This document shows positions 49,928-64,000 of a stretch of 64,000 bases of DNA, one piece after another. The notes below the pieces were generated by a model. The model saw only the letters and a list, made by a program, of their open reading frames with translations, was not told the DNA's origin and did not search any database. Numbering within the stretch: the stretch's first letter is position 1; every line of letters starts with the position of its first letter. A program made the position numbers and the translations under genes. Origin of the DNA: Roseimaritima ulvae (GTDB taxonomy: Bacteria; Planctomycetota; Planctomycetia; Pirellulales; Pirellulaceae); contig NZ_CP042914.1 in the NCBI RefSeq assembly GCF_008065135.1, positions 1,488,001 through 1,552,000 on the forward strand, read 5' to 3'.

Positions 49928-50012
49928 GTCCCGCCTGAGTGTCCACGCCTGAATGGCCCCCACGCTTGGCCCAAGCTTGACAGTCGCCATTTGTTTCGAT
50001 ACTTCTAAAACT

Positions 50013-50417
50013 ATGGAAATAAAACAAGCGGTCGTCGCACTGTCTGCACTCGCCCAGCAATCGCGTCTGGAGGTGTTTCGGTTGTTGGTCAAACTGGGCC
50101 CGGAAGGTTTGTCGGCGGGACAGATTGCCGAAACGCTCGGCATCCCTCCCGCCACGCTCTCGTTCCACCTCAAGGAACTAACGCACGCCGGGCTGATCGA
50201 ATCGCAGAAAGTTGGCCGGTCGGTGATCTATGCCGTCCATGTGCAAGGCATGAATTGCTTGATGGGGTTCCTGATGGAGGATTGCTGTCAAGGACGTCCG
50301 GACCTCTGCGCGACGTCCCGTTGCGACACGTCGGCCACGCAGCAACCGAAGCCAAAGCAGAAACAAAAACGAAAAACCAAACGGACACGGGCCTCACGCG
50401 CCGGTGCCCGTCGATGA
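50013..50417 (+). CDS. arsR: ArsR/SmtB-family transcriptional regulator with Cys-rich metalloid site
   Basis: 134 aa from ATG 50013. The winged helix is LSAGQIAETLGIPPATLSFH and LKELTHAGLIESQKVGRSVI. After it come Cys91-Cys92, Cys99 and Cys104 (MEDCCQGRPDLC), the arrangement of arsenite-sensing ArsR proteins of proteobacterial ars operons. A Lys/Arg-rich tail of about 20 residues ends the protein, which is not typical of the family. It precedes a PstS-like gene by 51 bases; derepression by As(III) is inferred. Confidence 0.8.
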   Translation: MEIKQAVVALSALAQQSRLEVFRLLVKLGPEGLSAGQIAETLGIPPATLSFHLKELTHAGLIESQKVGRSVIYAVHVQGMNCLMGFLMEDCCQGRPDLCATSRCDTSATQQPKPKQKQKRKTKRTRASRAGARR

Positions 50418-50468
50418 GTCGCCGTGATTTACTCTAACGACCCGACCTCTGTAGAAGGAAATGCAGGA

Positions 50469-51572
50469 ATGGAGATTTCAAAAACCGTGGCCATCGGCGC
50501 GTTGTTCGCCCTGGTCGTCGCATTCACGAGCGGTTGTGCCGATTCCCACTCCGGGGCAAAGGGACTGACCGTCACCGGCGGCGGTTCTACCTTTGCGGCT
50601 CCCCTGATCGCCAAGTGGGCTGATGAATACTACCAGCGCAATCCAGACTTCTCGGTTGAGTATGCCGCGGTCGGCAGTGGCGACGGCGAAGAAGGGTTTC
50701 TAAATGGAACCGAAGATTTTGGGGCCACCGACGCCGGACTGTCGACGGCGGATTTGGCACAAGCGGAAGGCGGAGCCCTCCAGGTTCCCATCACCGCCGG
50801 CATCATCGTGCTGGCCTACAACCCGGATGGTCTGCCGGCGGACCTGAAATTACCTCGGGCGGTCTACGTGGATGCCTTCTTGGGCAAAGGCACGCGTTGG
50901 AACGACCCTCGGATCGCGGAGGCCAATCCCGGACAGTCGCTTCCCGACGAGCCGATCAAGATCGTGGTTCGAGAAGACAGTAGCGGGACCACGTTTGCGT
51001 TCACCAATCACTTGGCAAACCTGAGCCAAGAATGGGCCGATGCCTATGGCAGTAGTGAGGCGACGTCGGACCTGGACCGCGGCGTGAAGGACCTCCACTG
51101 GCCCGACAACGCCAGTCGTTGCGGAGGGAATTCCGGCGTCGCCGTCAAAATTAAACAAACCCAGTACTCGCTCGGCTACGTCCAGTATGGCGCCGCACGT
51201 GATGCAAACATTAGCATGGCAGCGCTCGAGAATAAGGCCGGAAACTACGTGCCCCCGACCGGCACCAGCGGATTGGAAACGCTGCTGAACGCCGAACTGA
51301 CCGATGGCCTGCGAGCGTACATTCCCGATCCGGAGGGCGAGTACTCGTACCCGATCGTCACCTTTACCTGGCTGCTGCTACGCAAAGAGTACGAGGACGA
51401 GACCAAGACAGCCCAAATTAAAGCTTTTGCCGAGTGGTGTCTAAACCAAGGCCAAGACTACGCCGAGGCGGCCGGCAATGTACGGCTGGCCCCGCACGTG
51501 GTACGAGCCGCCGAAGCGGAGTTGACGTCGATGCAATCCGCCACCGAGGCTCCCCTTTCGCAATCGCCCTGA
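50469..51572 (+). CDS. PstS-like phosphate-binding lipoprotein, without pstCAB
   Basis: About 367 aa from ATG 50469 (AAGGAA upstream). Signal with lipobox FTSGC (Cys23). The phosphate-binding fold opens VTGGGSTFAAPLIAKWADEY, with GSGDGEEGF, FGATDAGL, the block VREDSSGTTFAFTNH and a block near the end YPIVTFTWLLLRKEYEDE, as in PstS. No permease or ATPase genes follow; the next stretch is a pseudogene. Its neighbour is ArsR-type, so it may act under arsenic or phosphate stress, when a phosphate-selective binding protein would help discriminate against arsenate. Confidence 0.85.
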   Translation: MEISKTVAIGALFALVVAFTSGCADSHSGAKGLTVTGGGSTFAAPLIAKWADEYYQRNPDFSVEYAAVGSGDGEEGFLNGTEDFGATDAGLSTADLAQAEGGALQVPITAGIIVLAYNPDGLPADLKLPRAVYVDAFLGKGTRWNDPRIAEANPGQSLPDEPIKIVVREDSSGTTFAFTNHLANLSQEWADAYGSSEATSDLDRGVKDLHWPDNASRCGGNSGVAVKIKQTQYSLGYVQYGAARDANISMAALENKAGNYVPPTGTSGLETLLNAELTDGLRAYIPDPEGEYSYPIVTFTWLLLRKEYEDETKTAQIKAFAEWCLNQGQDYAEAAGNVRLAPHVVRAAEAELTSMQSATEAPLSQSP

Positions 51573-52077: not shown

Positions 52078-53934
52078 TCAATCTTTGCCACTCGCCGCGT
52101 TGGCGCCGGTGGAGAAGCGTGACACGAGGATTTCCTGCGCGAGCACGGCCGTGTAACCGCTCAGGTGTGCCGCCCCTAGCCATCCGTAGGCTGATCGAAA
52201 ATCGCCAACCAACAACATCCCGGCGATCCCCAGCATGGCCCCCAAGATCATCGGATGCGGCAGGACCCCGTAAGGAAAACGCCGCACGGGTGCGGAGGAC
52301 TCAAACCCCAGTTCGGCGCCGAACAGGGTGCGGTTAAGCCCCAGCATCAGGGTCGCGTAGGTGGCCAGCGAAAAGCCGCCCACGACCAACCCCAAAGACA
52401 GCCACTGGCCGGAAAAATACATCGCGTACAGCGAGTAGAGTTCGAGCAAGGCCAACGTTTTAAAGAACACCGCATTGCGTCGGAATTCACCAAAGGCAAT
52501 CGACCGTCTCTCTCCCAACGTGCCGACGTAGATCCCGTAGTGGACAAAACTGGTGGTGGCGACAAACCAGCGAAGATCGCCAACCAACACCGCGAGCACA
52601 GCCATGAGCAGGACGTAAGCCAGATTAGCCCAGCCGACGTATCGTACCATCCATTCAAAAATCTTCGTCCAGCCCAGCACCCACTTGGTCTTGAATCGCG
52701 CGACCAGACTGTTGGGATCAATGGTTTTTAAGAACAACTTCCGAGCCCGAATGTCATACATCGTGGTCAGCTTGGCCAGCAATGCTCCGTACCAGGGGAT
52801 GTTCGCCGGGTAGGCCACGAAATGCAACTTCAAATTAATGCGTGGTTCGGGCTGCGGAGCCTGAGCGTCCCGAGTGATGTAATGCAGTTCACGATTAAAG
52901 TCAAAGGCAACCGCATCCCCGGTTTCCAGCCGATACCCTTCCGGCTGATCGTAATCGGTTCCGGTCATGGGGAAATGAGTGGTCACGGCTGCATTGGCAC
53001 TGGCCGCCACCATGCAGCGATACAACCGGGCGCCGGGAAAGATCGACCATGGTCCGTCCACATGCCCCATGTAAAACACCGTATCCGAAGTACTCTGCTT
53101 GGGAGGCCCGGTAACGTACAACTCATTCATCCCCGGCACCGTTCGCACGGCGTATCCAAAGCCATGGAAGCGTCGCAGCATAGACTGCAACTGCGAATCT
53201 TGACTGAGCCGCTGATAGGCGTCTCCGGCATCCCCGCTCAGATCCGACTGCCACCAGTGCGTGCTTTGCGTCAGGTTCGGCTGGTTTTCTTGTACCCAAG
53301 TACGAATGCTGGCCAGATCCTGCAATTGGTTCGGCGAATTCAGCCTTGTCTTCAATACGGCTTTACGAGACACCAGCACACGCAGTGGCGATTGCTTGCG
53401 CCGTCCCGCGACCACCAGCAGCACCGGCAACAGAAGCAAACTATGTTCAATAGCTCGCGACAGCCAATGGCGGTCGCGGATGTAGGTGCTTTGAAGCGTC
53501 CGCTCGCCGGTCAGCAGGTGGGCGATGTCTTGGCCGACATACCCGGTAACCAGGCAAATCACGGACGTGATCCAACCGGGGGAAGCGAAATGAGCGACCG
53601 CGTACAGCGCCGCCAACACGGCCGTGGAAGCCGCGCCGGCCGTTGTGGGTACGGTCAACGCCAGATAGAGGACGTACGCCCCCAGAACCGCCAGGGTAAC
53701 TGTGGGACTAAGCCAGTGCAGCAGCGAGATGAAACCGAACAGGCCCAGCGGTGTGGTGATCGCGTGCAGGGCAACATTCAAAGGCCGCCGATGACACTGC
53801 AGGAATTCACTGCAGACACGCTGCCAGCGTATCGCGTGCTTCCAATCTCGGAGGAAACTCAGGACCGACACCGCGGTGAAGCCGGCGTCTGGGGTCTGGT
53901 CAGATCGCGGGCGATCAAGTGAATCAGCTGTCAT
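52078..53934 (-). CDS. Multidomain membrane protein: Mpo1-like + HxD...H dioxygenase-like + phospholipid N-methyltransferase-like
   Basis: About 618 aa from ATG 53934 (AGGAA upstream; ATG 53958 is a longer alternative). Numbers below use the longer form. Residues about 45-185 match Mpo1/DUF962 (2-hydroxy fatty acid oxygenase-like): EFLQCHRRPLNVALHAITTP with His56 and His65, and GQDIAHLLTGERTLQ with His147, plus four hydrophobic segments. Residues about 215-385 are soluble, with His299-Val-Asp301 and His359 (GDAVAFDFNRELHYIT), resembling a cupin or 2OG-Fe(II) fold. Residues about 435-615 are polytopic with FGAELGFESSAPVRRFPYGV and LPHPMILG, close to the C-terminal part of PEMT/OPI3-type phospholipid methyltransferases. 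The combination suggests membrane-lipid modification. Each domain call is by motif, and the join within a single frame is clear. Confidence 0.65.
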   Translation of the reverse strand: MTADSLDRPRSDQTPDAGFTAVSVLSFLRDWKHAIRWQRVCSEFLQCHRRPLNVALHAITTPLGLFGFISLLHWLSPTVTLAVLGAYVLYLALTVPTTAGAASTAVLAALYAVAHFASPGWITSVICLVTGYVGQDIAHLLTGERTLQSTYIRDRHWLSRAIEHSLLLLPVLLVVAGRRKQSPLRVLVSRKAVLKTRLNSPNQLQDLASIRTWVQENQPNLTQSTHWWQSDLSGDAGDAYQRLSQDSQLQSMLRRFHGFGYAVRTVPGMNELYVTGPPKQSTSDTVFYMGHVDGPWSIFPGARLYRCMVAASANAAVTTHFPMTGTDYDQPEGYRLETGDAVAFDFNRELHYITRDAQAPQPEPRINLKLHFVAYPANIPWYGALLAKLTTMYDIRARKLFLKTIDPNSLVARFKTKWVLGWTKIFEWMVRYVGWANLAYVLLMAVLAVLVGDLRWFVATTSFVHYGIYVGTLGERRSIAFGEFRRNAVFFKTLALLELYSLYAMYFSGQWLSLGLVVGGFSLATYATLMLGLNRTLFGAELGFESSAPVRRFPYGVLPHPMILGAMLGIAGMLLVGDFRSAYGWLGAAHLSGYTAVLAQEILVSRFSTGANAASGKD

Positions 53935-54419
53935 GAAATGGTTTCCTGTCCGCAGCATATAGATTGGACGAAAACCTAACGTCGACCTGTTTGGATTGCG
54001 TTAAACCGTGAAGTATCTTTCAAGACTTTTTGCGTTTCGCGTTTTGCGTTTCGCCCGAATGCAGTCGACAACGACAGCCAACACGGCTCCGCAGTTACTT
54101 CTCCTTGGCTTGGGAGTACTTAACGCGATATTTGGCCGCCAGTGCGGTTTCGCTGGCGATTGCTTCGACCGGCCAATGACCATACCGCTCCATTTGTTTT
54201 TGTCTCGTTTGAGTTCCCATGTGACGGGGATTGTTTTACCCGACGCCCTAATGCTGATTGCGTTCTGGCATCACGACGATGCTACGGGCCACAGCGCTTT
54301 GGTGTTAAGAAACGGAGTTGCCCCACGCATGGCGGATTCGCCTGCTCGGAGGGCATTGCTAGAAAGACCTGTTCCCCTAACTGACTTTCACGCACTTTTT
54401 TTCAGGCATTTCGAAAACC
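53935..54419. other. Spacer upstream of the SDR gene with a small tandem repeat
   Basis: Contains two adjacent copies of a 14-base unit TTTTGCGTTTCGCG at 54028-54054 and a possible 41-codon minus-strand frame (54095-54220). A plus-strand frame of 283 codons crosses this area but reads the SDR gene in the wrong frame and is rejected. No other structure seen. Confidence 0.4.
54095..54220 (-). CDS. Possible small protein of 41 aa
   Basis: ATG 54220 opens a 41-codon frame ending HWPVEAIASETALAAKYRVK and YSQAKEK. The composition is protein-like (charged C-terminal helix, no repeats), unlike other frames in the spacer. No ribosome site is clear and no family recognised; it may be a fragment of a longer lost gene. 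Confidence 0.25.
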   Translation of the reverse strand: MGTQTRQKQMERYGHWPVEAIASETALAAKYRVKYSQAKEK

Positions 54420-63645: not shown

Positions 63646-64000
63646 TCAATCCCACGCATATCGTTCGTCGAGCTCGATTCCGTGGCGTCTGCACAGCTTT
63701 CGAAACTCGTCTTTGAACGATTCTTTTAGGTGATGCTTTTCTTGGTGGTCGATGTAGTGGCTGACCGCTTCGACGTTCGATTGGCTAACCGAAAACGCCC
63801 CGTAGCCGCCCTGCCATGAGAACGTCGACACGCCCTTCGCATGCTGCTTGACCCATTTACTCGTTTCCGTCTTCGCAACTTTTATTAGCTCCGCGATGGT
63901 AACCACCCGCGGCAACGTAACGAGCGCGTGTATATGATCTTCAACTCCGCCAATTCGTAGAGCGTGCGAATTGAATTCGTTCTTGAACACCGTCGCCATG
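63646..64000 (-). mobile_element. IS200-like / REP-associated tyrosine transposase (RAYT), 5' end beyond window
   Basis: The readable part (118 codons) lacks the N-terminus, which lies past base 64000. It has the metal-binding HxH motif in GGVEDHIHALVTLPR and, in the C-terminal part, GYGAFSVSQSNVEAVSHYID followed by HHLKESFKDEF. The catalytic Tyr is expected in the latter region (HYI). The family makes single-strand cuts next to REP hairpins. Its stop lies against a group of such hairpins, so it is probably the source of them. Confidence 0.9.

Follow-up and report, generated by a model that had tools for sequence, protein, structure and literature searches.

The TRI gene and its surroundings

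The window, meaning the whole stretch of DNA analysed here, is 64,000 nucleotides long and comes from Roseimaritima ulvae. Its minus strand carries a gene for a three-domain membrane protein, called TRI in this work. The features of the window that are discussed below are as follows; residues of TRI are numbered throughout from the ATG at 53958.

49953-50417, ArsR-type regulator gene, upstream of pstS
50424-51572, plus strand, pstS, phosphate ABC transporter substrate-binding protein (TIGR00975, 270 bits against a cutoff of 205)
52078..53934, minus strand, TRI, three-domain membrane protein gene, 618 aa from the inner ATG
52078-53958, minus strand, longer TRI frame from the upstream ATG at 53958, 626 aa
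52099..52683, minus strand, segment 3 of TRI (residues 426-620), PEMT-like integral membrane methyltransferase, with a PF04191 match at residues 519-589
52759..53361, minus strand, segment 2 of TRI (residues 200-400), putative Fe(II)/2-oxoglutarate oxygenase domain
52840..52842, minus strand, R373, candidate 2-oxoglutarate-binding Arg, invariant
52882..52884, minus strand, H359, candidate distal iron ligand, invariant
53056..53064, minus strand, H299-V300-D301, candidate first iron-ligand motif HxD, with H and D invariant
53389..53841, minus strand, segment 1 of TRI (residues 40-190), Mpo1-like membrane domain, PF06127-like and below the Pfam cutoff
53988..54004, minus strand, weak copy of an upstream repeat (9/12 positions), 30 bp before the ATG at 53958
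63646-63999, minus strand, fragment of an IS200-like Y1 transposase (PF01797), running off the end of the window

An earlier, sequence-only reading had described a single frame of 618-626 aa with three segments, and this is borne out: TRI is one open frame on the minus strand. The residues to which that reading drew attention (H56, H65, H147, H299-V-D301, H359 and FGAELGFESSAPVRRFPYGVLPHPM) were all found at the positions it gave. The inner ATG at 53934 (618 aa) seems the likelier start, because the nearest ortholog (L001/G040, 65% identical) begins at the residue aligned with M9.

Fourteen full-length TRI proteins were collected in all. The orthologs are 44-65% identical to the window's protein from about residue 42 (in one case from residue 9) to near the end, and in the alignment 118 positions of the window's protein are invariant. 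These include H56, N61, H65, Q143, H147, E152, H299, D301, H359 and R373, as well as H568, P569, M570 and E609 in the C-terminal part. The dN/dS ratio lies between 0.06 and 0.18 in every segment for four ortholog pairs, one of which (G250/G251) is near saturation at synonymous sites. By this measure all three segments are under similar purifying selection, which argues that all three parts are maintained. Hydropathy suggests a membrane anchor made of several hydrophobic stretches, located in the N-terminal and C-terminal parts, and a soluble middle domain. An AlphaFold2 model of the full-length protein, made with 4 sequences in the alignment, has low confidence (pLDDT 38.0), probably because there were too few homologs.

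The three segments of TRI

Segment 3 is the most readily assigned. The full-length protein scores 27.1 bits against PF04191, above the curated cutoff of 25, and segment 3 alone scores 29.8 bits; the family matches all of the 14 orthologs at E<=10, the best at 4.9e-9. The segment is of intermediate conservation (43-65% identity to the window's) and has the FPYGxxxHPM motif and the C-terminal Glu in common with PEMT. By profile it is clearly a PEMT-like methyltransferase, and SAM-dependent methylation of a lipid amine is predicted. It differs from PEMT in that it forms part of a larger protein, in a context of betaine-lipid synthesis rather than phospholipid methylation.

Segment 1 resembles Mpo1, the yeast 2-hydroxy fatty acid dioxygenase of PF06127, whose original report, by its title as given in PMC9624242, concerns alpha-oxidation of a 2-hydroxy fatty acid. 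Against PF06127 the full-length protein gives 7.4 bits (E 6.4), which does not reach the cutoff of 24; segment 1 alone gives 22.2 bits (E 1.5e-4), still below it. Segment 1 of every one of the 14 orthologs is matched at E<=10, with a best value of 7.2e-5. When 100 genomes of the family were searched with PF06127, matches were found in 8 of them, and none in the six TRI carriers sampled (G000, G014, G038, G040, G133 and G260); the Pfam model alone therefore misses this domain. Profile-profile comparison with hhalign is more telling. Against nine Mpo1-like proteins of Planctomycetota, segment 1 gives probabilities of 96.5-97.1% and P values of 7e-11 to 9e-10, and seven other profile comparisons give P values of 0.048 to 0.62. 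Segment 1 is the least conserved part of TRI (32-55% identity to the window's), and H56, N61, H65, P70, Q143, H147 and E152 are unchanged in all 14 full-length orthologs. The core of H, N, H and P followed by Q..H is thus common to TRI and the Mpo1-like proteins. There are also differences: TRI is fused to two further domains, and after H147 it has ExTxQxxY where close Mpo1-like relatives have a run of the EGxxPA type. Since the Pfam cutoff is not reached, we call the segment Mpo1-like and go no further.

The middle segment, in the broader span of residues 200-425, is the best-conserved part of TRI, with identities of 45-73% between the window's protein and the other 13 of full length. Its candidate ligands H299, D301, H359 and R373 are kept even in an internally deleted copy from S. 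sedimenti, described below. The distal His lies 58 residues past the Asp, and the Arg 14 residues further on; an HxD motif, a distal His and a following Arg or Lys with such spacing occur in Fe(II)/2-oxoglutarate oxygenases. A Pfam scan of the window's middle segment matched no family, and among the 14 middle segments there was a single stray match (E 0.053) in one member. PF05118 (AspH) matched none of the 14, nor was it found in G000 by genome search. In hhalign, the middle domain scored 29.1 against a 30-row PF05118 profile at a probability of 35% and a P of 3.9e-4. The highest of 100 column-shuffled controls scored 26.3, the reversed version gave 11.6, and unrelated families gave P values of 0.028 to 0.72 against the AspH profile. 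For scale, AspH compared with PhyH, both of them accepted members of the superfamily, likewise gives a probability of 37%.

The alignment with PF05118 pairs the first His, the YRC/LRC motif, a G...FD element and the final R, and these stand in the same order in both families, while the distal His is offset and unpaired. TRI has HxD where PF05118 has HxG and 60 residues between its two His, its middle domain has no Pfam match, and the AspH-type fold is a candidate only. Two other identities for the domain were tried and set aside. PhyH was marginal (P 0.053, with 2 of 100 shuffles scoring as high), and PF13640 did no better than unrelated families, in a comparison set that was poor in that several of its rows were in the wrong frame. 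The structural check named in the sequence-only reading was a double-stranded beta-helix with its ligands clustered. The AlphaFold2 model of the middle domain, again from 4 sequences, is of low confidence (pLDDT 45.9), and Foldseek with this model gave nothing meaningful (best E 0.06); a PHD2 chain among the matches listed, at rank 37 with E 4.4, was treated as noise. Sequence searches of the PDB with the TRI protein and with three profiles returned either nothing or one chance-level match each (E 1.3, for the middle domain, and 0.84).

The three-part architecture put forward in the sequence-only reading is therefore retained in graded form: the PEMT-like part passes its Pfam cutoff, and the Mpo1-like part is supported by profile-profile comparison while remaining under its cutoff. 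For the middle segment, where a cupin or 2OG-Fe(II) fold had been suggested, the invariant motif and the weak AspH-like profile match point the same way, and the domain is likely to be an Fe(II)/2OG oxygenase.

Distribution of TRI

In a search of 98 relatives, full-length TRI was found in five genomes including the window's (G000, G040, G038, G014 and G062), and three further matches were confined to one part, either the Mpo1-like or the PEMT-like one. A wider search of 241 genomes of the family, using a 7-row TRI profile at E<=1e-10 with the best five candidates per genome scored, gave a match in 16, these being 13 full-length copies, one internally deleted copy (G257, S. sedimenti, locus L003) and two remnants (G258 and G234). 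With G062, which belongs to another family of the order, this makes up the 14 full-length proteins.

In a sample of 392 genomes of the phylum, with the best three candidates per genome scored, two matched, both of them known TRI carriers. When 248 genomes of the class were searched with the middle domain alone, 5 matched, and each of these carries TRI. In the genomes searched, both the fusion and the middle domain were seen only in this order. A scan of contigs across phyla for close relatives returned three loci, all in Planctomycetota, and the viral contigs and plasmids searched yielded no relative. Among the matches listed from a search of open-licence papers, none gives an account of this fusion or of such a gene behind btaAB.

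Operon context in relatives

In 12 of the 14 genomes with full-length TRI the genes stand in the order plcP-like, btaA, btaB, TRI, with TRI directly after btaB. In the loci L001 and L002, for example, TRI directly follows genes for a calcineurin-like phosphoesterase, BtaA, and a methyltransferase at the position of BtaB. Two genomes, G014 and G133, have the start codon of TRI overlapping the btaB stop by 4 nt, and in three others, G253, G254 and G255, the overlap is 11 nt; for the remaining seven operon genomes the nearest TRI ATG lies 3-80 nt past that stop. The two genomes in which TRI stands outside the operon are the window's and G062, where TRI and the cluster are on different contigs. 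At one locus (L042) the plcP-like and btaA frames were absent from the list of open reading frames, which has an opposite-strand frame there, and were recovered by tblastn.

BtaA is assigned by PF11899 (DUF3419), with E values of 3e-111 for L001 and 2e-116 for the window's genome. The plcP-like protein, encoded upstream of btaA, matches PF00149 (calcineurin-like) and is LpxH-like, below the equivalog cutoffs. The names PlcP-like and BtaB are given from position and literature, the profile libraries yielding only general families. The arrangement phosphoesterase-btaA-btaB corresponds to the type 1 plcP cluster of marine bacteria, as described in passages of PMC4796936; according to the same passages, Phaeobacter has a plcP-btaA-btaB cluster and makes DGTS under phosphorus starvation, and deletion of plcP abolishes DGTS. 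TRI, as the next gene, shares the membrane-lipid theme of PlcP, BtaA and BtaB, and of the fused Bta1 of algae and fungi, but is itself none of these enzymes. In the literature searched, no later step of the BtaA/BtaB pathway in bacteria is described among the matches listed.

Linkage to BtaA, losses and decay

BtaA is present in 179 of the 241 genomes of the family, and betaine-lipid synthesis seems to be very common in Pirellulaceae. Its loci are of at least two types, with a plcP-like phosphoesterase adjacent or with none in the fetched flanks, which for the latter were often only 1.5 kb. Each of the 13 genomes of the family that carry full-length TRI also has BtaA, compared to 166 of the 228 others; G062 has it too, so that every one of the 14 full-length TRI genomes is BtaA-positive.

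A BtaA tree was built from 58 rows (54 distinct), a selection from the 179 BtaA genomes made up of the loci with TRI or its remnants, a chosen set of loci for comparison and the 30 top-scoring BtaA matches, to which G062 was added. One plcP-linked clade (support 100/99) holds 21 rows, of which 13 have TRI, 2 have TRI remnants and 6 have none. Outside this clade TRI accompanies 1 of 37 rows (33 genomes). The plcP-like gene was found with btaA in 20 of the 21 clade rows, and the contig of the last one begins inside btaA. The simplest history would place TRI in the ancestor of this operon type, with several losses afterwards.

In G258 and G234, BtaAB is retained and TRI survives as fragments behind btaB: in the remnant at L049 7834-8082, pieces matching approximately residues 1-19 and residues 474-542 of the protein from G255 adjoin, and that at L050 1586-1966 matches approximately residues 4-138. 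In S. sedimenti, no BtaA was found in the genome, and btaA and btaB are missing from the locus (one assembly). The plcP-like frame there is shortened, matching only residues 1-190 of 297, and TRI has an in-frame internal deletion of approximately residues 131-296 (L003 5860-7284, and L048 7304-8728 in the same record). The neighbouring transketolase and ExbD-like genes, identified by sight, are still in place. By the look of this locus, the betaine-lipid pathway of S. sedimenti is decaying, TRI and BtaAB together.

The six clade rows without TRI and the two with remnants indicate that TRI is dispensable for keeping BtaAB. TRI is lost while BtaAB stays, yet none of the 14 full-length copies occurs without BtaA, which points to an accessory role downstream of BtaAB.

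The window's own copy and the upstream repeat

In the window's genome a distance of 3.6 Mb separates TRI, at 1.54 Mb, from the plcP-like gene, btaA and btaB, at 5.14 Mb. TRI and pstS are convergent, with 0.5 kb between them. The presence of pstS fits a phosphate theme but could be coincidence. Upstream regions of TRI and 15 plcP-like genes were scored with the E. coli PHO-box consensus, which did no better than background.

A direct repeat with a period of 11 bp was found on the coding strand before 11 of the 17 plcP-like genes scanned (L037-L039, L043, L045-L049, L052 and L091), matching at 9 or more of 12 positions. It was scored as TTAACA-N5-TTAACA, the commonest form being TTAACA-N5-TCAACA (sequence TTAACAnGATATCAACA and variants), and in ten of these loci it stands 54-110 bp before the annotated start of the plcP-like gene. 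It is absent before the plcP-like gene in L040, L041, L044, L093 and L095, and the operon of the window's genome (L083) has it on the opposite strand only. In all four Stieleria genomes searched there is a single exact copy of the core, which lies at the operon, and G000 has none; a reversed control pattern turned up once in the five genomes together. The copy upstream of TRI in the window is weak and may be due to chance, since a score at least equal to it is reached by 30 of 400 control stretches, which were drawn from the same loci and hence partly include true repeat sites.

Possible function of TRI

We propose that TRI is a tailoring enzyme of the phosphorus-free betaine-lipid pathway, a reading in which we place slightly more belief than doubt. 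Because it is encoded directly behind the genes for their synthesis in most relatives, TRI probably remodels betaine lipids, in a step with no prior description in the literature searched. In the known part of the pathway, under phosphate limitation, PlcP converts phospholipid to diacylglycerol, BtaA puts a homoserine headgroup on the diacylglycerol, and BtaB methylates the headgroup to give DGTS, which TRI would then modify within the membrane. The putative Fe(II)/2OG domain in the middle would hydroxylate the lipid, most likely on the headgroup beside the free carboxylate; the Mpo1-like domain might bring about an O2-dependent cleavage or decarboxylation there, by analogy with the alpha-oxidation of 2-hydroxy acids; and the PEMT-like domain might N-methylate the resulting amine. 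For alpha-oxidation of the Mpo1 type the carboxylate must be free, and in an esterified acyl chain it is not. In DGTS only the headgroup bears one, and for this reason we would place the reaction on the headgroup and not on the acyl chains. The sequence-only reading had envisaged a membrane-bound enzyme acting on both acyl chain and headgroup; the lipid theme stands, whereas these targets give way to DGTS, to which, rather than to phosphatidylethanolamine, the gene context with BtaA and BtaB points.

The acyl chains nevertheless deserve consideration. TRI might adapt acyl composition during phospholipid recycling: the 2OG domain would produce 2-hydroxy acyl groups in the manner of LpxO-type enzymes, one carbon would be trimmed off the freed 2-hydroxy fatty acids by the Mpo1-like domain, and a headgroup would be methylated by the PEMT-like domain. 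AspH/PF05118, the family of LpxO, gave the middle domain its best profile match and would suit this scheme. So would Mpo1 itself, which parts of PMC9624242 describe as a dioxygenase of fatty acid metabolism that depends on Fe(II). Such a role is at odds with the linkage of TRI to btaA/btaB and with the esterified state of the chains, which leaves them without the free carboxyl that alpha-oxidation needs, and we consider it unlikely.

It is also conceivable that TRI works on another lipid formed under these conditions, for example by hydroxylating and N-methylating PE or an aminolipid, and that it sits in the operon only so as to be co-regulated. BtaB is already a methyltransferase, so that a second one in the pathway needs a reason; this counts against the tailoring role and in favour of a different substrate, as do the PF04191 score above its cutoff and the position of TRI apart from the operon in two of the 14 genomes. 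The decay of TRI where BtaAB has been lost, and its near confinement to one BtaA clade, argue on the other hand that the substrate is the product of BtaAB, and an unrelated lipid target appears distinctly improbable to us. We give even less weight to the idea that TRI contains one or more segments without catalytic activity, its Mpo1-like or PEMT-like part just anchoring the oxygenase in the membrane. It would account for the sub-cutoff Mpo1-like match and for the middle domain being the most conserved and segment 1 the least; the family-typical H56, H65, Q143, H147 and E152, the HPM motif and E609 are however invariant in all 14 proteins, and purifying selection is similar on all segments. 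A tailoring step on betaine lipids is the reading we retain.

Implications for betaine-lipid metabolism

Betaine lipids stand in for phospholipids in many aquatic microbes once phosphate is exhausted. The synthesis of DGTS is already solved, and TRI is a concrete candidate for a later step, because it is conserved, overlaps btaB in several Planctomycetota, and combines two oxygenase-like modules with a methyltransferase. Passages of one account (PMC10685587, 2023) state that DGTA, which is an isomer of DGTS, is assumed to form from it by decarboxylation and recarboxylation, the enzyme and mechanism being unknown, and that nothing is known of DGCC synthesis; they also report a tree of betaine-lipid synthases in which planctomycete sequences lie at the base of the clade of marine protists and algae. 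The production of both DGTS and DGTA has been ascribed to heterotrophic marine bacteria, in parts of PMC4796936 (2015).

It is worth adding, as a long shot, that TRI may turn DGTS into DGTA, or carry out the oxidative decarboxylation half of this conversion, or else make some other, unnamed lipid derived from DGTS. If this were true, TRI would be a bacterial counterpart, and perhaps an ancestor, of the DGTA step of marine algae. The closely related Stieleria genomes with TRI (S. tagensis among them), without it and with broken copies are a ready natural experiment.
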